Shown: positions 12,481 through 21,327 of the stretch, in pieces
How positions within the stretch are numbered: the first letter of the stretch is position 1
Layout: every line of letters starts with the position of its first letter
Assembly (NCBI RefSeq): GCF_000018405.1
Contig: NC_009943.1
Span: forward strand, 1,305,001-1,369,000
From: Desulfosudis oleivorans Hxd3
Lineage (GTDB): Bacteria > Desulfobacterota > Desulfobacteria > Desulfobacterales > Desulfosudaceae
DNA length: 64,000 nt
Direction of reading: 5' to 3'
The notes under the pieces: model-generated
Databases searched by the model: none
Seen by the model: only the letters and a program-made list of their open reading frames with translations
What the model was told of the DNA's origin: nothing
Translations under genes and position numbers: made by a program

Positions 12481-12508
12481 TTGACAAATAATATTATTCT
12501 GATATTGT
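12481..12508 (+). promoter_or_regulatory. Sigma70-type promoter for the mttB cluster
   Basis: TTGACA (12481-12486), a 16-bp spacer and TATTGT (12503-12508) lie in AT-rich DNA. This predicts a transcript start near 12515 and a ~160-nt leader before mttB1. The leader ends in a GC-rich inverted repeat (CCGGCC 12619-12624, GGCCGG 12648-12653) just before the ribosome site. The rest of the gap 12259-12480 shows nothing clear beyond a weak hairpin near 12353-12366. Confidence 0.55.
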
Positions 12509-12677
12509 TCAATAATTGTTGAGGAGACATACGTTAAAAAATGAATGAGTTTCATACAGTTCCCTGTAAAAATAATTTGAGATGAAATGATTTGTCTGAA
12601 TTTTAATTTGCCGCTCACCCGGCCGACGGCGGGTTGTTTTGTTTGCCGGCCGGTACCGGCACAGTAAGGAGGCCCGA

Positions 12678-13892
12678 TTGAACAGCGAGCAGGTCAACCA
12701 TTCTGAACGTGTGCTGGGAAAACCAACCGTGGAGATGCTCAAACAGGTCCACGAGGATGCCTGCTGGATTCTGGAAAACCTGGGTGTGGGATGCCGGCAG
12801 CCCCAAATGGTGGAGGCGTTCAAAGCCCTTGAGGCTGAAGGCCTGGTCCTGATTCATGAGAACCGGATTTACCTGATGCGCGACCTGGTGGACCGGTGCC
12901 TGGGCAGTACGCCGGGTGTGGCCGATTTTTTTGTGCCGAGAAACAGCTTTTTTGTCGGCGGCACGGCGCCCTATATTTATGATGATGAAAAAGGGCTGGG
13001 CGGTATCATGCCCACCGAAGACCACGTGGCCCGCATTGCTCAAATCGCGGAGAAAAGTCGTGTGGTGGCCGGCATGGGCCGGGGCGTGAAGCTTGCCGAC
13101 GAGGTGGTCCAGATGAACCTGATGGATGCCCACTGCGCCAAGCCGCTCTATTTTGCCGTGACATCGGACGCCGCCCTGGAACGGGCCGTGGCCCTTCACA
13201 AAAAGCGGGGAAACGTGATGGTGGTCTTCTGCCTGACCCGCCCCCCCCTGGAAGTAAATGAAAATTTTTCCGAGCATTTTGTAAAGGTGGTTCAGGCCGG
13301 TCTGCCGGTCTTTATTTCCGCCATGCCCATGGCCGGCATCAGCGCGCCTTTCTGTTACAACGGGGTCCTGGCCATGACCCATGCCGAAGTGCTCTTCGGT
13401 ATCTGTGTGTCCCAGCTGCTTCGGCCCGGTGCCGTGTGCATTCATGCCGGGTTTCCCACCATTGCCGACCCGCGCATCGAGTACAACCCCAACTACGGGC
13501 TGGTCTCCCATAACCTGCTCAACATTCTGATGACCCACCTGTGCCTGATGCTCGATCTGCCGGCGTTTCAAAGCGCCTGCACCACTCACGAGGAGCACCT
13601 GACCCGGCGGGCCTATGACGATGCCAAAGCCGGGCAGGCCATGTGTTTGAAGTACGGGTTTCACATGATGCGTCACACCTTTTCATTTCTGCGGTACCTG
13701 ATCGATTTTTCCATCGAAAAGCTGGAACGCTCAATTGAGATTCTGGAAAATACCACCCCGGACGATGCACCCGCGGTGGAGATGCCGGTTTACGATCCCC
13801 GGGGCATGGAATCAATCATGCACACCGGGGTGGGCATGTATATGGAGGATCCGCTGACCACAGCCAACTTCGGCAAGGTGTTTGTCGATTAA
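12678..13892 (+). CDS. MttB-family corrinoid methyltransferase, short form (1)
   Basis: Member of the trimethylamine methyltransferase superfamily, which moves a methyl group from a methylated amine to a corrinoid protein. The 404 residues contain NSFFVGGTAPYIYDD, SAMPMAGISAPFCYNG, MTHAEVLFGICVSQL and FQSACTTHEEH. No amber codon interrupts the frame, so it is a non-pyrrolysine member; such members include glycine betaine methyltransferases. I chose the TTG at 12678 because AAGGAGG lies 5 bases upstream; an ATG at 12639 has no ribosome site. It is shorter than canonical MttB (about 480-500 residues) and is most similar to the gene at 16425. The substrate is unknown. Confidence 0.85.
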   Translation: MNSEQVNHSERVLGKPTVEMLKQVHEDACWILENLGVGCRQPQMVEAFKALEAEGLVLIHENRIYLMRDLVDRCLGSTPGVADFFVPRNSFFVGGTAPYIYDDEKGLGGIMPTEDHVARIAQIAEKSRVVAGMGRGVKLADEVVQMNLMDAHCAKPLYFAVTSDAALERAVALHKKRGNVMVVFCLTRPPLEVNENFSEHFVKVVQAGLPVFISAMPMAGISAPFCYNGVLAMTHAEVLFGICVSQLLRPGAVCIHAGFPTIADPRIEYNPNYGLVSHNLLNILMTHLCLMLDLPAFQSACTTHEEHLTRRAYDDAKAGQAMCLKYGFHMMRHTFSFLRYLIDFSIEKLERSIEILENTTPDDAPAVEMPVYDPRGMESIMHTGVGMYMEDPLTTANFGKVFVD

Positions 13893-13936
13893 TTTATCAA
13901 CCGTCCGAATCGTCAAACGGACAAAGGAGAGATATC

Positions 13937-15550
13937 ATGTGCGGCATTGCTGGATGTTTCGGCAGAAAGGATGAACCGACCGTTAAACGCATGCTGGATA
14001 CCCTGGGCCATCGGGGCCCCAATGACCGGGGGATGCATGCGGGCGCCAGTTTCGTGGTGGGCCATACCCGGCTTTCCATCGTGGACGTGGCCACCGGCCG
14101 TCAGCCCATCCTCACCGGGGACGGTACAAAAGGTATCGTGGCCAACGGTGAAATTTACAACTTCCGCAAGCTGCGGATGGGGATTGCGGATAAGTACCAG
14201 TTCCGCACCAGGTCGGACACCGAGGTCGTGCTTCATCTCTACGAAGAAAAGGGGCCTGCCTGCGTCAAGGACTTAGACGGCATGTTTGCGTTCGCCCTGT
14301 TTGACGGCGACGCCTTTATGCTGGCCCGGGACCCTGTCGGCATCAAGCCGCTCTATTACGGGTTCAAGCAGGACGCGCTCTATTTTTCCTCCGAGCTGGG
14401 GGCCATGAGTTTTGCCGGCCTGGACGAGGTCCACGAGTTTCCGGCGGGTCATTACTACACACCCAAGGAGGGGTTTGTGCAGTACTACAAGGTGCCGCCC
14501 ATTGAGGATGACCAGCTTACCGACATCGAGGAAACCTGCGAAATTATCCGGGAAACCTTTATTCACGCCGTGAAGAAAAGGCTGCTGGCCGACCCCGAGG
14601 TGCCGGTGGGCTCTTTCTGCAGCGGCGGGCTGGACAGCAGCCTGGTGGCGGCCATTGCCGCGGACGAGATTCCCCGGCTTCACACCTTTGTGGTGGGCAT
14701 GAAGGACGCCTTCGGGGATGTGAGTGACGATGTCAAGGCGGCCCGTATAGCCGCGGCCCATATCGGTTCCACCCATCACGAGCTGATTTTCACCGAGGAC
14801 GAGTACTACGAGGCCCTGCCCACGGTGATCAACAAGCTGGAAAGCTATGATCCCTCCCTGGTGCGGTGCGCCGTGCCCTGTTACTTCACCTGCAAGATGG
14901 CGGCCGAATATGTCACCGTGGTGCTGACCGGCGAAGGGGCCGACGAGCTGTTCACCGGCTATCATTACATGAAGCATTTCCCGGAAGACAAGCTGAACCT
15001 CGAAGCCCGGCGCTGCATCGGCAACCTGCACAATATCAACCTGCAGCGGGCCGACCGCATGGGCATGCTGTTCAGCCTGGAACTTCGGGTGCCCTTTCTG
15101 GACGAAGCCATGGTGGACCTTTCCATGAAGATTCCCCACGAACTCAAGATTCGGGAACACAACGGCGCCAAGATCGAAAAATGGATTCTGCGCAAAGCCT
15201 TTGAAAACACGCACTACCTGCCGGACGATATCCTGTGGCGCTACAAGGTGCAGTACACCCAGGGCGCGGGCTGCGAGGACCTGGGCGAGCGCCTGGCCAA
15301 CCGGATGGGCGATGACGAGTACGAGAAAATCAAGGCCGAAAATCCGGACGCGGTGATCAACAGCAAGGAGGCGGCTTACTACTTCAAGATTTTCCGCGAG
15401 TATCATCCCCAGGATTCGATTCTGGGCTCCATCGGCATCTGGACCGGGTTTGATTTTGCCGAGGAGCGGGAGAAGGTCAAGGGGACCGTGGACGGGGACC
15501 TGAAGCACGAGCACGAAGAAGAGACCGACGACACCTCTCAGGTGGCCTGA
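13937..15550 (+). CDS. asnB: Asparagine synthase (glutamine-hydrolysing), AsnB family
   Basis: Two-domain amidotransferase of 537 residues. The N-terminal Ntn glutaminase begins MCGIAGCFG, with Cys2 as nucleophile, and has HRGPNDRG and HTRLSIVD. The synthetase domain has the PP-loop CSGGLDSSLVAAIAA near residue 228 and TGEGADELFTGYHY. It could make asparagine, but its place between two mttB genes suggests amidation of a pathway intermediate (inference). AAAGGAGAG precedes the ATG 44 bp after mttB1, and the next gene starts 8 bp after its stop, so it is part of the operon. Confidence 0.9.
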   Translation: MCGIAGCFGRKDEPTVKRMLDTLGHRGPNDRGMHAGASFVVGHTRLSIVDVATGRQPILTGDGTKGIVANGEIYNFRKLRMGIADKYQFRTRSDTEVVLHLYEEKGPACVKDLDGMFAFALFDGDAFMLARDPVGIKPLYYGFKQDALYFSSELGAMSFAGLDEVHEFPAGHYYTPKEGFVQYYKVPPIEDDQLTDIEETCEIIRETFIHAVKKRLLADPEVPVGSFCSGGLDSSLVAAIAADEIPRLHTFVVGMKDAFGDVSDDVKAARIAAAHIGSTHHELIFTEDEYYEALPTVINKLESYDPSLVRCAVPCYFTCKMAAEYVTVVLTGEGADELFTGYHYMKHFPEDKLNLEARRCIGNLHNINLQRADRMGMLFSLELRVPFLDEAMVDLSMKIPHELKIREHNGAKIEKWILRKAFENTHYLPDDILWRYKVQYTQGAGCEDLGERLANRMGDDEYEKIKAENPDAVINSKEAAYYFKIFREYHPQDSILGSIGIWTGFDFAEEREKVKGTVDGDLKHEHEEETDDTSQVA

Positions 15551-15558
15551 GAAGCGGC

Positions 15559-16407
15559 ATGGAACTGACCATTCTGGGTTCCGGCGGATGCACGGTGATT
15601 CCCAGGCCGCTGTGTACCTGCCCGGTGTGCCGGCAGGCACGGGAAAAGGGAATCCCCTATGCGCGTTCCGGGCCGTCTGCCTTTCTGCACGACGCCGGCC
15701 TGCTGATTGACGCGCCGGCCGAAATCGCCGGCCAGTTGAACCGGGAGTCCATCGGGCAGGTGGATCACCTGCTTTTCACCCACCTGGACCCCGACCATGT
15801 GGAGGGGTTCCGAGTGGTGGAGCAGATCACCCTGGATTTTCGGACCTGGCGGTCCTGTCCGGGCAAATGCATAGACTTGGTGCTGCCCCGGCCCCTGATG
15901 GATCGCCTGGAGCGGATTCGCACGGCTTACGGCTCCCAGGCGGCCTTTTACCGGGACCAGGGGTTTATTCGGTGCCGGGCCTTTGACCGGTCCACGCGAA
16001 TCGGCGATGTCACGGTGACCGCTCTTCCCGTGGACCGCGGAGGCCAGATTGCCTATGTCTGCGTTTTTGAAAAGGCGGGCGTAAAGATCGTGTATGCCGC
16101 CTGCGACATACGGCCGTTTCCGGAAAATGACCCGGCGGTGCGCGATCCCGACCTGCTGGTGATTCAGCCCGGCCTTTTTGAAACCGGCCTGAAGCACGGT
16201 TTTGTCTATCCGCCGGACCATGTCTCCCGGTCAACACTCTATACGTTTGACCAGACCGTGGACCTCTGCCGCCGGATCGGCGCCGGGAAGGTGGTGTTTA
16301 TTCACCTGGAAGAGTACTGGAACCGGAGCCATGACGACTATACGGCCCTGGAAGGGGGCCTGAATAACATGCGCTTTGCCCATGACGGCATGCGCCTGGA
16401 CGTATAA
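15559..16407 (+). CDS. Metallo-beta-lactamase-fold hydrolase, PhnP-like
   Basis: A 282-residue MBL-fold metalloenzyme. The signature THLDPDHVEG near residue 73 supplies the His/Asp ligands. An N-terminal CTCPVCRQAREKG cluster resembles the extra structural zinc site of PhnP-type cyclic phosphodiesterases. PhnP opens phosphoribosyl cyclic phosphate in phosphonate breakdown, but no other phn gene is nearby. A hydrolytic role on a pathway intermediate of the mttB cluster is plausible but unproven. It starts 8 bp after asnB and ends 17 bp before mttB2. Confidence 0.78.
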   Translation: MELTILGSGGCTVIPRPLCTCPVCRQAREKGIPYARSGPSAFLHDAGLLIDAPAEIAGQLNRESIGQVDHLLFTHLDPDHVEGFRVVEQITLDFRTWRSCPGKCIDLVLPRPLMDRLERIRTAYGSQAAFYRDQGFIRCRAFDRSTRIGDVTVTALPVDRGGQIAYVCVFEKAGVKIVYAACDIRPFPENDPAVRDPDLLVIQPGLFETGLKHGFVYPPDHVSRSTLYTFDQTVDLCRRIGAGKVVFIHLEEYWNRSHDDYTALEGGLNNMRFAHDGMRLDV

Positions 16408-16424
16408 CCCGGAGGTTGCGTGAA

Positions 16425-17657
16425 ATGTTTGAACCGGAAACAAAAAAGACGATCAACAAGGAGCAGACAACGACACCCATGAACTTTGCGGACGATACCC
16501 TGCTGGACCAAATTCACCGGGACGCGATACGCGTACTGGAAGAGACCGGTGTGTGGTGCCCTTCAACGGAGGTGAGGGATATCTTTGAACAGACCGGGCA
16601 GGCGGCTTTTGACGAGACCACCGGCCACCTGCACGTGCTGGGGCCCCTGGTGGACCAGGCCCTGGCCATGACCCCGAAACGGGATTCCTACTGGATCGGT
16701 GAAAATGCCTTTGGCGTGGGTGGTACCGCGCCCTTTGTGCATGACGATGCCACCGGCGAACTGATTACCCCCACGTTTGAACACCTGGCAAAAATCGCCG
16801 CCATCGTGGACCAGGCGGACGTGATTGACTTCATGGCCCGGGGTGTGCTGATTCCCAAGCACGAGGTGGAGGTGATGGACACCATCATTGAGACCTGCCA
16901 AAAGCCGGTATATGTCGCGGCGGTCTCTGAGGCCGGCATTGCCCGGGCCGGGGAGATTCACCGGAGCCGGGGCGGCTTGACCGTTCAGTTCTCCATCATC
17001 AACAGCCCCCTTGCCATCATCGAGAGCATGATTCCGCCGTTTCTCTCCTGCGTGCGGCAGGGGATTCCCATTTATGTTTCCACCATGCCCATGGCCGGGC
17101 TTTCCGGCCCTTACTCCATGTCCAGCCTGGTGACCCTGACCCATGCCGAGGCCCTGTTCGGCATCACCCTGGCACAGCTGGTCAACCCCGGCATTACGGT
17201 GGTTCATGCCGGCCTGCCCTCCATTGCCAGCATTAACGACAACTATGCCGTGAACCTGGGGCTGGTCTCCTTCAATATCGCCAACCTGCTTATGGAGAAG
17301 GTGAACAAGCGCCTGGACCTGCCCTCCATTCAGACCGCCTGCACCACCAGCCAGGCCCATCCCAACAAGGTAGCTGAAGCCGAGGCGATCAACGGGTTTG
17401 CCCTGATGAAAAAATACGGGTTTCACCAGATGCGCCACGCCTTCGGGTTTTTAAAGGAGCTGGTCTCTTTTTCCATCGCCAAGCTGGAGCGTCACATCGA
17501 CCTGTGCCGGTCCACGGACCCGGACCAGGCCCCGGAATATGAGCTGGAGCCCTACGACCCGGAGGGGCTGGCCGCAATCATGCGAAACACCAGCCGGGCC
17601 GGTTACATGCGGGACGACCACACCCTGAAAAACACGGGAAAATCTTTTTTAATATGA
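16425..17657 (+). CDS. MttB-family corrinoid methyltransferase, short form (2)
   Basis: Second short MttB-superfamily protein, 410 residues, clearly paralogous to the gene at 12678: NAFGVGGTAPFVHDD, STMPMAGLSGPYSM, LTHAEALFGITLAQL, IQTACTTSQAHPNK and GFHQMRHAFGFLK line up with the first copy. No in-frame amber codon is present. I chose the ATG at 16425 with GGAGG nine bases upstream; a TTG at 16416 is closer to the ribosome site but poorly spaced. The corrinoid protein gene follows after 22 bp, so this enzyme is a likely direct methyl donor to it. Confidence 0.85.
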   Translation: MFEPETKKTINKEQTTTPMNFADDTLLDQIHRDAIRVLEETGVWCPSTEVRDIFEQTGQAAFDETTGHLHVLGPLVDQALAMTPKRDSYWIGENAFGVGGTAPFVHDDATGELITPTFEHLAKIAAIVDQADVIDFMARGVLIPKHEVEVMDTIIETCQKPVYVAAVSEAGIARAGEIHRSRGGLTVQFSIINSPLAIIESMIPPFLSCVRQGIPIYVSTMPMAGLSGPYSMSSLVTLTHAEALFGITLAQLVNPGITVVHAGLPSIASINDNYAVNLGLVSFNIANLLMEKVNKRLDLPSIQTACTTSQAHPNKVAEAEAINGFALMKKYGFHQMRHAFGFLKELVSFSIAKLERHIDLCRSTDPDQAPEYELEPYDPEGLAAIMRNTSRAGYMRDDHTLKNTGKSFLI

Positions 17658-17679
17658 ACCCAAGCCAAAGGAGAGAGCC

Positions 17680-18306
17680 ATGACACAGTTTGCAAATATG
17701 ACGGAAGCGATTCTGGCCGGTGATCCGGACAGGGTAAAGCAGCTGGCCGAAGAAGGGATCAGCAGGGGCGACGATGCCGGGGCCGTGATGGCGGCCATGA
17801 TCGGGGCCATGGATATCGTGGGCGAGAAGATGGAAGCGGAAGATATGTTCATTCCCGAGGTGCTGATGTCGGCAAAGGCCATGAGCGCGGGCACCGAGTT
17901 GCTCAAGCCCCACCTGGCCGAAGGCGGGGACGGTAACAAGGGCACCCTGGTGATCGGCTCCGTGCACGGCGACCTGCATGACATCGGCAAAAATCTGGTC
18001 AAGATGCTCATGGAAGGGTCGGGTTTTTCCGTGGTGGACCTGGGCACCAACGTGGCGCCGGACGCTTTTCTGGCCGCGGTAAAGGAACATTCGGCCAGCC
18101 TGGTGGGCATGTCGGCCCTGCTGACCACCACCATGCCGGTGATGAAGGAGGTGGTGGACGCCCTCAAGAATGCCGGGCTGCGGGACCAGGTCAAGGTGCT
18201 GGTGGGCGGCGCTCCGGTCACCGATGCGTATGCCGAGCAGATCGGGGCCGACGCCTATGGCGCGGACGCCGGATCAGCGGTGCGCATCGCCAAGTCCCTG
18301 GTGTAA
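17680..18306 (+). CDS. Methyltransferase corrinoid (B12-binding) protein, MttC/MtbC type
   Basis: Soluble methyl carrier of 208 residues. The N-terminal ~90 residues are the helical cap domain (B12-binding 2). The C-terminal Rossmann-like domain carries the cobalt-ligand motif GDLHDIGKN (D-x-H-x-x-G) near residue 96, followed by SGFSVVDLGTNV and LVGMSALLTTTM. It would accept methyl groups from the surrounding MttB proteins and give them to a second methyltransferase acting on a folate or thiol. Neither that enzyme nor a RamA-type reductive activator is present in this window. It is the only corrinoid protein beside three MttB paralogs. Confidence 0.94.
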   Translation: MTQFANMTEAILAGDPDRVKQLAEEGISRGDDAGAVMAAMIGAMDIVGEKMEAEDMFIPEVLMSAKAMSAGTELLKPHLAEGGDGNKGTLVIGSVHGDLHDIGKNLVKMLMEGSGFSVVDLGTNVAPDAFLAAVKEHSASLVGMSALLTTTMPVMKEVVDALKNAGLRDQVKVLVGGAPVTDAYAEQIGADAYGADAGSAVRIAKSLV

Positions 18307-18352
18307 CCCCCACCCGTCAACTGCCGAATCAGGAGAAAAAGGAGAATAAACA

Positions 18353-19786
18353 ATGGCAAATATTCGCAGCAACCAGAACGCTTTGTTAAGCCCCATGGCC
18401 CGGAAGATGTCGGAAGACCAGTGCAGAAAGCTCTACTGGGCCTGCCTGGAAATTCTGGAGCGCACCGGCGTATGCCTGCACGAGCAGGCGGCCGTCGACC
18501 TGTTTAAAAAGGCCGGCGCCATGGTAAGCGATGGCAACCGGGTACGCATTCCCGCCGGCATGGTGGAAAAGGCGCTGTGCACGGTGCCCCGCAAAATCAA
18601 CTTCTGTGACCGCAACGGCAACCGGGCCATGCAGGTGGGGGGCCACCGCAGCTACTTCGGCACCGGTTCGGACTGTCTTCACATCATCGACCACCGCACC
18701 GGCCAGCGGCGAAAGGCGGTGCTTCAGGACATCGTTGAGGGCATGACCCTTTGTGACGCCCTGGACCACATCGACTTTGTGATGTGCATGTTTCTGCCGT
18801 CGGACGTGCCCCAGGAAAAACTGGACCGCTACGAGATGGAGGCCATGCTCAACCATACCACCAAGCCCATTGTCTATGTGACCACCGAGTTTTCCGGGTG
18901 CAAAGACGCCGTGACCATGGCCGAGATCGTGGCCGGGGGTGAGGACCAGCTGCGGCAGCGGCCTTTTGCCGCCTGCTACATCAACGTGACCACCGGGTTG
19001 CGTCACAACGGCGAGGCACTACAGAAGCTGCTCTACCTGTCGGGCAAGGGGCTTCCCTTTACCTATATTCCGTCGGCCCAGGGCGGCGTGACCGCGCCCA
19101 TGACCATTGCCGGTACCATGGCGGTGAACAATGCCGGCGTGCTGGCCGGCCTGGTGCTTTCTCAGCTCAATAACGAAGGCGCCCCCTTTATCATGCCGGG
19201 GTGGGGCGGCAACATGCTGGACATGAAAACCACCACCCAGCCCTATGCCGATCCGGAAAAACGGGGCCAGGCCATAGATTTTGCCCATTTTCTGGGGCTG
19301 CCCACCTTCAGCCTGGCCGGATGCAGCGAGTCCAAAGTCATGGACCAGCAGGCATCCGCCGAAGCGGCCCTGACCCTGTTTACCGACGCCCTGTTCGGCG
19401 GCAACCTGGTCCACGACGTGGGCTACCTGGAATCGGGGCTGAGCGGCTCGCTGCCCCAACTGGTGATCTGCAACGAGATTTTAAGCTGGCTGGACGCCTT
19501 CATGCATCCGGTGGATATATCCGATGAGACCCTCTGTCTGGAACTGATCGACCAGGTGGGGCCGGACGGCCAGTACCTGGACCACCCCCACACCATGGAA
19601 CATTTTCGTGAGCGGTGGTACCCCGGCATTTTCGATCGCTCGAACCATGCCTCATGGCAGAAAAAGGGGGCGAAAAATCTTGGCGAGCGGGCTACTGAAA
19701 AGGTGGACAAAATTCTGGCCGACCATAAGTCCGAGCCCCTGGCGCCGGACGTGGCAAAGGCTGTGCATGCCGTGATAGAAGGATAG
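18353..19786 (+). CDS. MttB-family corrinoid methyltransferase, full-length form (3)
   Basis: Full-length (477 residues) member of the trimethylamine methyltransferase superfamily. It starts with the usual helical segment MSEDQCRKLYWACLEILERT, then RTGVCLHEQAAVDLFKKAGA. Further blocks are FGTGSDCLHIIDHRTG, PSAQGGVTAPMTIAGTMA and DALFGGNLVHDVGYLESG. No amber codon is present, so the pyrrolysine of true MttB is replaced. AAAGGAG precedes the ATG. It diverges strongly from the two short copies and may act on a different amine or after them. The C-terminus (YPGIFDRSNHASWQKKGAK) is typical of the full-length family. Confidence 0.9.
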   Translation: MANIRSNQNALLSPMARKMSEDQCRKLYWACLEILERTGVCLHEQAAVDLFKKAGAMVSDGNRVRIPAGMVEKALCTVPRKINFCDRNGNRAMQVGGHRSYFGTGSDCLHIIDHRTGQRRKAVLQDIVEGMTLCDALDHIDFVMCMFLPSDVPQEKLDRYEMEAMLNHTTKPIVYVTTEFSGCKDAVTMAEIVAGGEDQLRQRPFAACYINVTTGLRHNGEALQKLLYLSGKGLPFTYIPSAQGGVTAPMTIAGTMAVNNAGVLAGLVLSQLNNEGAPFIMPGWGGNMLDMKTTTQPYADPEKRGQAIDFAHFLGLPTFSLAGCSESKVMDQQASAEAALTLFTDALFGGNLVHDVGYLESGLSGSLPQLVICNEILSWLDAFMHPVDISDETLCLELIDQVGPDGQYLDHPHTMEHFRERWYPGIFDRSNHASWQKKGAKNLGERATEKVDKILADHKSEPLAPDVAKAVHAVIEG

Positions 19787-19800
19787 AAAGGAGACGTGCC

Positions 19801-20751
19801 ATGCGGGTGGCCATCTGCCAGACAAAGCCGGCGCTGCTGGATGTTCAGACCAACCTTGAATCGGTGATTGCCCATATTCATAAATGCCGGGAACAGGGCG
19901 CCCAGCTGGTGGTTTTTCCTGAACTGGCCCTGACCGGTTATTTTGTGGGGCTCCAATATCACAAGGCGGCCCTGCGCATGGATTCCGACCAGATTCGAAA
20001 GCTGGCCGCCGCCACAAAAGGGACCGCCGCGGTGGTGGGATTTATTGAAGAGTCCCGGTCCATGAACTTTTACAATTCGGCCCTGATCGCGGTGGACGGG
20101 GAGATTCTGTTTGCCTACCGCAAGCTGAACCTGCCCAACTACGGGGCCTTTGAGGAACGCAAGTTTTTCGCCAACGGCAAGCATATCCGGGTGTTCCGGC
20201 TCAACGACTTTAACGTGTCGGTGTTTATCTGCAACGACATGTGGCACCCGGCCCTGCCCTACCTGGGCGTAACCCAGAAGGCCGATATTTTTGTCTCCAT
20301 CATCAACTCGTCGGAAGAGTCCATGGGCGCGGAGTTCAACAACGTGGAGAGCTGGGATATCATCAACCGGTTCTACTCCCGGGTGTTCGGCATTTACAAC
20401 ATCTGCGCCAACCGGGTGGGCACCGAAGACCCGGACGAAACCTGGGATATACCAGAGGATGACAAGCTGCTGAAAAAGACATCGGACGTGTTCCTGGTGC
20501 CGGAGGTCAAAAAGCGGTACCGGTTCTGGGGCGGCAGCGAGATCATCAACCCCTTTGGGCAGCGGATTTATAAGGCCAGACTCTATGAGACCGACGTGAT
20601 CATGGGCGAGCTTTCAAAGGACCTGGTCCGGCGCAAAAAAATTCTGCTGCCCTACCTGAGAAACGACGACCCCTATTTTACCCGGCGGGAACTGCACCGC
20701 ATCCTGTTTGAACAGGCCGGTGATACCTCCAGGCCCCAGCACAAACTCTGA
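19801..20751 (+). CDS. Carbon-nitrogen hydrolase (nitrilase superfamily)
   Basis: Cytoplasmic amidase or nitrilase-type enzyme of 316 residues. The catalytic triad is visible: Glu41 in FPELALTGY, Lys108 in YRKLNLPNYG and Cys144 in VFICNDMWHP. GGAGACGTGCC precedes the ATG, 14 bp after mttB3, so it is the last gene of the operon. In this setting it could hydrolyse an amide made by AsnB or release a carboxylate from a methylated amide (inference). The gene ends exactly where the convergent marR gene ends. Confidence 0.88.
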   Translation: MRVAICQTKPALLDVQTNLESVIAHIHKCREQGAQLVVFPELALTGYFVGLQYHKAALRMDSDQIRKLAAATKGTAAVVGFIEESRSMNFYNSALIAVDGEILFAYRKLNLPNYGAFEERKFFANGKHIRVFRLNDFNVSVFICNDMWHPALPYLGVTQKADIFVSIINSSEESMGAEFNNVESWDIINRFYSRVFGIYNICANRVGTEDPDETWDIPEDDKLLKKTSDVFLVPEVKKRYRFWGGSEIINPFGQRIYKARLYETDVIMGELSKDLVRRKKILLPYLRNDDPYFTRRELHRILFEQAGDTSRPQHKL

Positions 20752-21327
20752 TCAGTCCCGCGCTGTCTTTGCCTTTCCGGGGCGGCCCCGCTTTGCGGGC
20801 ATTTTTTTCGGCGGGGGCGGATCAACACCGCTGAGGGGGCCGGCCTCGGCCAGAATCGGGGCCGCGTCGATGTCCCGGGCGTTCATCAGGGCCACCACGC
20901 GCTGCAATGAGCTGAGGATCATGGCCTGTTCCCAGTCGGCCAGCCGGTGAAAAGACTCGATAAAATGCTGCTGCAGCAGGGGAGGGGCCTTTTCCAGCAG
21001 CTGCCGGGCCGAGGCGGTCACCGTGATGTAGACCTTGCGTTTGTCCTGCCGTCCCCGCCGCCGTTCAACCAGCCCCCTCTGTTCCAGCCGCTCCAGGATG
21101 CCGGTCACAGTAGGCTGGCCCAGGCTCACGGCCTTGGCGATCTCGTTGATGGCAACTTCCTGGTGAACAGAAATGGTTTGGAGCACGATTAACTGGGGCC
21201 CGGTGAGCCCGAACTGCCGGACCAGTGCCCTGGAATGCAGGTCCACGGACTGAATGATGCGGCGAATGGCGATCAGTACCTGGTTGGAGATGGCTGTGTC
21301 TGCCGGCTGACAGGTGGGTCGGTTCAT
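20752..21327 (-). CDS. MarR-family transcriptional regulator
   Basis: A 191-residue winged-helix repressor-type protein. The helix-turn-helix and wing are in INEIAKAVSLGQPTVTGILE and RRGRQDKRKVYITVT, preceded by the family phrase LTGPQLIVLQTI. A basic Pro/Lys-rich tail (PPPPKKMPAKRGRPGKAK) is unusual and resembles an AT-hook-like GRP core. It is the last gene of the his-era strand rather than divergent from the mttB cluster, so regulation of that cluster is only a guess. Confidence 0.88.
   Translation of the reverse strand: MNRPTCQPADTAISNQVLIAIRRIIQSVDLHSRALVRQFGLTGPQLIVLQTISVHQEVAINEIAKAVSLGQPTVTGILERLEQRGLVERRRGRQDKRKVYITVTASARQLLEKAPPLLQQHFIESFHRLADWEQAMILSSLQRVVALMNARDIDAAPILAEAGPLSGVDPPPPKKMPAKRGRPGKAKTARD

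Follow-up and report, generated by a model that had tools for sequence, protein, structure and literature searches.

The 64,000-nucleotide stretch of the Desulfosudis oleivorans Hxd3 genome analyzed here (NC_009943.1, positions 1,305,001 to 1,369,000; hereafter the window) contains a row of seven genes that encode three proteins of the MttB superfamily, a corrinoid protein, an asparagine-synthetase-like amidotransferase (AsnB), a metallo-beta-lactamase-fold (MBL) protein and a nitrilase-superfamily amidase. We found that this row is a conserved, modular island of sulfate-reducing bacteria, larger than the first-pass annotation had noted. The recurring core comprises two short MttB proteins and an amide synthetase, often accompanied by MBL protein and nitrilase, and one exchangeable module is attached to it. 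We tentatively read the island as catabolic for a betaine-type N-methylated compound, with a short MttB core, an amide step and an exchangeable demethylation module, and rate this reading at somewhat below even chances. The features of the row and its surroundings, in window positions, are the following.

12481..12508, plus strand: candidate promoter-like site, TTGACA - 16 - TATTGT (consensus scan 10/12, not above chance for the region)
12678..13892, plus strand: mttB1, short MttB-superfamily protein of 404 aa, TTG start (PF06253, 80.6 bits)
13937..15550, plus strand: asnB (kind A6), asparagine-synthetase-like amidotransferase with N-terminal MCG (NF006949, 615 bits)
15559..16407, plus strand: mbl, MBL-fold protein in which HxDPDH replaces HxHxDH (PF12706)
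16416..17657, plus strand: mttB2, second short MttB-superfamily protein, 413 aa, TTG start (PF06253, 102 bits)
17680..18306, plus strand: corrinoid (B12-binding) protein, MtgC/MttC-like (PF02310, PF02607)
18353..19786, plus strand: mttB3, full-length non-pyrrolysine MttB, 477 aa (PF06253, 302 bits)
19801..20751, plus strand: nit, nitrilase-superfamily amidase (PF00795, 122 bits)
20752..21327, minus strand: marR-like putative regulator of the row, convergent with nit (PF01047)

Relatives of mttB1 with 61-80% identity were found in 38 named loci by a scan of one genome per species, the patterns of which catch close relatives only, so that absence outside Desulfobacterota cannot be read from it. 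The locus titles include Desulfobacteraceae, Desulfobacterales, Syntrophobacteraceae, Deltaproteobacteria, Desulfonema magnum and an Olavius symbiont, along with two ‘Proteobacteria’ and one ‘bacterium’. Together with the window this gives 39 loci, 29 of which encode both short MttBs. Gene order in other genomes had been proposed as a check, and the full order of the window (mttB1, asnB of kind A6, mbl, mttB2, corrinoid gene, mttB3, nit) is repeated in locus L026, runs in L027 as far as mttB3, where the contig ends, and recurs in L054 without nit. The row is therefore more than chance. Among 297 genomes sampled across the phylum, 11 have MttB1 (one of them a fragment; a further match is only 26% identical), 13 have AsnB of the window's kind (at least 70% identity), ten of them with MttB1, six have the MBL protein, all with MttB1, and 14 have the nitrilase, nine of them with MttB1. 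This sample and the named loci are not independent because they share contigs (genomes G231 and G304 have an identical contig, and L044 contains a stretch of G033). Since gene calls by longest open frame misread some islands (L040, L095), the island counts rest on tblastn. A plasmid search with MttB2 returned 79 records, all below 60% identity and at 24-26% among the 25 matches listed; three plasmid neighbourhoods from this search hold MttB genes of ordinary length in other settings. No published description of the gene set, or of its presence in these organisms, was found in the literature searched, which covered few subscription papers.

The island has two slots with exchangeable content. 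In the 29 islands with two short MttBs, the module slot holds a flavoprotein in 16 cases, a long MttB with a corrinoid protein in ten, both in none and neither in three (L037, L055, L060). The flavoprotein belongs to the DAO family and is nearest to SoxB (sarcosine-oxidase/dimethylglycine-dehydrogenase-like); it differs from the SoxB/SoxA system in that a SoxA match is found in none of the 16 flavoprotein islands. The synthetase slot is filled by the A6 kind of AsnB in 14 islands, by a second kind, A3, in 13, by both in none and by neither in two, and all four combinations of module and synthetase were found. On a tree of MttB1 and MttB2, for which the bootstrap had not settled and in which L057 forms a long branch, the module changes at least three times and the synthetase at least five times. 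Locus L033, an A6 island, is nested with very short branches in a 100/100 clade whose other members are A3 islands, which makes an in-place swap of the synthetase probable. Fisher tests computed alongside the 39-locus counts gave P values of 1.4e-5 and 1.8e-6 that ignore relatedness. At E 1e-15 the flavoprotein was not found in the genome of the window, and it is absent from 12 of the 13 searched genomes of the corrinoid or ‘neither’ classes; the exception is Desulfonema magnum, a ‘neither’ case with a 74% identical, unlinked flavoprotein elsewhere in its genome. Two stricter rules were rejected: genome-wide mutual exclusion of long MttB and flavoprotein, because both occur in G208 and a long MttB is encoded elsewhere in three of 11 flavoprotein-island genomes, and one AsnB kind per genome, because five genomes hold both.

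Several loci depart from the common organization. In L094 (4514-10964), from a near-complete genome, a damaged-looking island has kept MttB1, AsnB and the flavoprotein, MttB2 was not found, and the nitrilase and SoxB are fragments. Fragments of second MBL and AsnB copies flank an intact AsnB in L028 (10099-13606), as if the island had been rearranged. Loci L058, L059 and L050 encode MttB1 without MttB2, adjoining SoxB/SoxA-type genes and OpuA transporters. MttB1 adjoins an MmgE/PrpD gene and a large GlmS-like open frame in L055, L060 and L063 (two of the three with MttB2), and no AsnB, MBL or nitrilase matches were found in these three loci.

The two short MttBs are 40% identical to each other, and either is 17-20% identical to MttB3. 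The AlphaFold2 model of MttB1 (predicted local distance difference test score, pLDDT, 93.3) superimposes on the solved MttB structure 7xcl with Z 38.5 and a root-mean-square deviation of 2.2 over 342 residues, model residues 11-363 corresponding to chain residues 17-396. In the solved structure, a dimerisation loop of MttB (396-452), together with the cofactor, holds the corrinoid protein MttC, and helices 453-495 anchor this loop (PMC9842639). MttB1 and MttB2 lack both elements: the match of the MttB1 model ends at chain residue 396, and 62-64 residues follow the column of MttB Gly372 in the short proteins, compared with about 115-123 in complete long ones and 92 in a row cut by its contig end. 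MttB1 and MttB2 are thus MttB-superfamily members without the C-terminal docking feature. The column matched to H345 of MtgB is His in 36/36 MttB1, 27/27 MttB2 and 4/4 MttB3 proteins; H345 is the modelled ligand of the betaine carboxylate among four MtgB contacts (Y94, N199, R309, H345), which derive from docking and not from a complex (PMC6855144). A change of Gly372 to Leu was rejected as proof of a lost corrin contact: Leu occurs in 63/63 short proteins, but Cys in 6/6 of one long group. In Desulfonema magnum, a second short MttB (L078, 2-1342) lies about 11-18 kb from two OpuA-type transporter sets (L077, 1682-8866).

MttB3 and the corrinoid protein form a conventional non-pyrrolysine MttB system. 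The phmmer match of MttB3 to 7xcl covers its residues 9-476, reaches 7xcl residue 486 and places a Cys in the column of Pyl334. The corrinoid protein matches TIGR02370 at E 1.7e-53, yet remains below the curated cut-offs of both TIGR02370 (182 bits, cut-off 215) and NF047996 (205 bits, cut-off 370); the motif GDxHDIGKN is kept in eight corrinoid proteins. The short pair also occurs where no close match to such a partner was found. The island of G184 (98% complete) reads MarR, MttB1, AsnB A6, flavoprotein, MBL, MttB2, nitrilase, and no TIGR02370 corrinoid-family match above 33 bits was found in this genome. In G132 (98% complete) there is no such match above 29 bits; its island looks damaged, with MttB2 not found and the nitrilase a fragment. 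A match above 100 bits is lacking in five of the 11 searched flavoprotein-island genomes (G299, G300, G306, G311 and G318, all metagenome-assembled genomes (MAGs) with completeness not given), and a long MttB is absent from eight of the 11. The MttBs of the complete Desulfonema magnum genome are all short, and its one corrinoid protein, at 82 bits, adjoins a UroD/MtaA-type gene. Other corrinoid proteins in the genome of the window (L069, 4614-6526 and 11581-14089; L070, 5900-7817) lie near MtaA/UroD-type genes, one of these loci having a TetR-looking gene; they are separate methyltransferase systems.

The first-pass annotation had treated the three MttBs as equal methyltransferases on one corrinoid protein, which is not supported, as two of them belong to a short subfamily that persists in G184 with no corrinoid-family match above 33 bits. 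The corresponding classical explanation is that all three are Co-methyltransferases of different quaternary-amine specificities with a common corrinoid protein, the short C-terminus being a harmless loss. It draws on the PF06253 scores, all three above the cut-off, on the barrel fold of the MttB1 model, which is close to MttB, on the retained His as putative carboxylate ligand, and on E. limosum, in which MtqC is common to MtpB, MtcB and MtyB (PMC12155760). The G184 genome, the five MAGs and the unmatched docking loop and anchor helices speak against it, and we regard it as possible although doubtful.

The MBL protein had been called PhnP-like. It scores 33 bits against the PhnP equivalog (cut-off 272) and carries T-H-x-D-P-D-H in 18/18 proteins, with no invariant His between residues 85 and 180, whereas the PhnP motif is HxHxDH; neither feature of a PhnP cyclic phosphodiesterase was thus found. 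It shares the fold and Cys residues near the N-terminus with the PhnP/PqqB branch and differs from it by this motif. The folds nearest to its model (pLDDT 84) are 3md7, 6b9v and PqqB 4z7r, with Z 23.5-23.8 (nucleotide-bound MBL 23.8, PhnP-family diphosphatase 23.6, PqqB 23.5), E. coli PhnP being further away at 20.0. Of the earlier suggestion of an amide or a cyclic phosphate in the substrate, the idea of an intermediate that is amidated and later hydrolysed remains a good one, while the motif, the equivalog score and the greater fold distance from PhnP (Z 20.0 vs 23.5) leave the cyclic phosphate without support.

The AsnB of the window exceeds the cut-off of the asparagine synthase B equivalog NF006949 (615 vs 499 bits), and the N-terminal MCG is found in 13/13 proteins of its kind; it is predicted to be glutaminase-competent. 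The A3 kind shares about 30% identity with A6; none of its 17 proteins has Cys at position 2, and it scores 298 bits, below the same cut-off. This cysteine is likewise lacking in beta-lactam synthetase. In the PDB, E. coli AsnB is the best match of both kinds, with 1ct9 nearest for the window AsnB. In genomes without an mttB1 match, AsnB relatives lie beside long mttB genes in G195, G240 and G208, and nitrilase relatives do so in G195, G112 and G161. The rows include RACo-MttB-nitrilase in G195 and G112 and nitrilase-PrpD-OpuABC-MttB in G161, and in G033, where MttB1 is on another contig, the nitrilase adjoins SoxA-SoxD-SoxB. Such rows tie the amide enzymes to methylated-amine genes at large, beyond the short pair. 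The first-pass annotation would have been contradicted by genomes that never link its three extra genes to mttB; they are linked in those five mttB1-less genomes, and for the MBL protein in 6/6 genomes with mttB1.

Genomes G195 and G240, of one genus, carry a row of MtgD-like, MttB, MtgA-like, MttB, corrinoid, S-adenosylmethionine (SAM) methyltransferase and AsnB genes, which in G240 continues with MetK and SahH; ‘MtgD-like’ is our label for proteins with a methionine-synthase activation domain. The same order through MetK and SahH is seen in L082 (1770-15445; partly in L081), a methylation cycle joined to window-type AsnB that may serve osmolyte synthesis. A biosynthetic explanation, by which the genes make an N-methylated, amidated osmolyte, MttB and corrinoid protein run towards methylation or feed the SAM cycle, and AsnB installs the amide, takes its support from the G195 and G240 rows and from Ruegeria, where mtgC and mtgD serve methionine synthesis and betaine demethylation alike (PMC12478193). 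We consider it improbable, as such rows occur in one genus only and the import systems, flavoproteins and nitrilase of other islands suit breakdown.

In the nitrilase, FPE, RKLNLPNYG and FICND are conserved in 12 proteins, which we take to contain the Glu-Lys-Cys catalytic residues of the superfamily. It scores 117 bits against NF010588, below the cut-off, its best PDB sequence match is 5kha, and its closest kin is the glutaminase domain of NAD+ synthetase. This kinship would suit a nitrilase that acts as a separate glutaminase and supplies AsnB, the cysteine-less kind in particular, with ammonia, on the model of NAD+ synthetase, and the enzyme is present in 8/9 uncut A3 versus 5/11 uncut A6 islands (Fisher P 0.07, relatedness ignored). 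The window AsnB has its own MCG, and the nitrilase stands beside RACo-MttB pairs in G195 and G112 in rows without AsnB, which makes such a role quite improbable. Finally, it is most improbable that AsnB, MBL protein and nitrilase are unrelated and co-transcribed by chance, with AsnB, which passes its equivalog cut-off, an ordinary asparagine synthetase: their grouping is conserved over many genomes, the synthetase is exchanged in place, the MBL protein occurs only with mttB1 in the 297-genome sample, and another full-length AsnB-type gene lies at 1745706 in the genome.

We thus return to the catabolic reading. Genes of OpuA-type transporters (OpuAC domain) are present in 14/39 loci, and SoxA/SoxB-like and MtgA-like genes neighbour other islands. 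These betaine-type transporters, together with the neighbours resembling sarcosine oxidase and MtgA, point to catabolism of the betaine type that includes an amide step. In the genome of the window, an MtgA-like gene near 3439500 (352 bits, cut-off 259) and an OpuAC gene at 3331316 are unlinked to the row. Both modules, MttB3 with the corrinoid protein and the flavoprotein of the sister islands, would remove a methyl group. MttB3 would transfer the methyl group of a quaternary amine to the corrinoid protein, from which the unlinked MtgA-like protein would pass it to tetrahydrofolate, as in MtgABC. AsnB may amidate a carboxylate, either of the substrate or of an intermediate, at the expense of ATP; the nitrilase would later hydrolyse this amide, and the MBL protein may make a further hydrolytic cut. 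The substrate of MttB1 and MttB2 would be the N-methylated compound, perhaps amidated, and neither protein would dock a corrinoid protein in the manner of MttC when acting on it. The amide step is a reasoned guess built on plausible chemistry; substrate activation has a precedent in MthK, which phosphorylates choline before MthB demethylates it (PMC12155760). The more specific proposal that MttB1 and MttB2 form a branch working without a docked corrinoid protein on a carboxylate amidated by AsnB, in an ATP-activated, amide-protected betaine breakdown with exchangeable demethylation modules, seems rather unlikely on present evidence.

A number of observations weigh against the catabolic reading or its parts. 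A TIGR02370 match above 100 bits is present in 6/11 searched flavoprotein-island genomes, and a missing corrinoid protein does not exclude corrinoid chemistry, since MtgB methylates free cob(I)alamin in vitro (PMC6855144). Only the His of the four modelled MtgB contacts is kept in MttB1 and MttB2 by alignment, and the match of this column to H345 is uncertain because six long MttBs of one sister group have Asp there, with His one column earlier. A long MttB may take the place of the short pair, as G208, without an mttB1 match, has MarR, AsnB (A6), flavoprotein, OpuABC and long MttB in one row. The three long MttBs encoded elsewhere in flavoprotein-island genomes (11 searched, of 16 islands) include one fragment. 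A6 and A3 may not be strict equivalents, since G298, G304, G306, G313 and G273 hold both kinds, one of them outside the island. The nitrilase is missing from 6/11 uncut A6 and 1/9 uncut A3 islands and the MBL protein from 12/29 islands, and in many loci, which are MAG contigs, the cut falls close to the genes. The window row yielded no OpuA genes, and it is from neighbours elsewhere that we infer a betaine-type substrate.

With regard to known systems, the window shares MttB3 and the corrinoid protein with MtgB/MtgC/MtgA of Desulfitobacterium (with MtgD in Ruegeria). MtgA-like and MtgD-like genes occur in some sister islands as well. The window row lacks both and differs further by two extra short MttBs, AsnB, MBL protein and nitrilase and by a corrinoid protein below the MtgC model cut-offs. 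The point in common with MthK/MthB/MthC/MthA of E. limosum would be an ATP-dependent change of the substrate tied to an MttB protein; the choline system uses a kinase and phosphocholine, whereas the window has an AsnB-type enzyme and an amidase.

The seven open genes of the row lie on the plus strand from 12678 to 20751, with gaps of 44, 8, 8, 22, 46 and 14 bp, and six of them are preceded by a Shine-Dalgarno-like sequence. Their Pfam/NCBIfam families are, in order, MTTB, asparagine synthase with a glutamine amidotransferase domain, MBL fold, MTTB, B12-binding, MTTB and CN_hydrolase, in agreement with the original description of seven genes on one strand with gaps of 8-46 bp and with the families named there. 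The MTTB (PF06253) scores of mttB1, mttB2 and mttB3 are 80.6, 102.2 and 301.7 bits, all above the cut-off of 25 bits, and no further MTTB gene was found in the rest of the genome (one contig, 3,944,167 bases). The seven genes have no internal stop codons, which bears out the MttB genes without amber codons of the first-pass annotation; pyrrolysine readthrough in the row was rejected, as there are neither internal stops nor an in-frame amber codon. Gene 1 had been started at 12481, which is instead the first base of the promoter-like TTGACA; its start is most likely the TTG at 12678, after TAAGGAGG. Five promoter-like sites were found in the region by the consensus scan, not significant against the 3.4 expected. 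In 17/39 loci mttB1 is preceded by a MarR-type gene of the same orientation; the window has the convergent arrangement instead.

Predictions of methylamine and betaine turnover in anoxic sediments draw on genes of the MttB type, and for most of the superfamily no function has been assigned. A conserved short pair that persists where a partner corrinoid protein is not found would break the rule that an MttB gene means corrinoid methyl transfer. The AsnB/amidase step, if true, would add amide activation to the known kinase activation of choline, and the swaps of flavoprotein and corrinoid module in one slot amount to an experiment of nature by which the shared intermediate is narrowed down.

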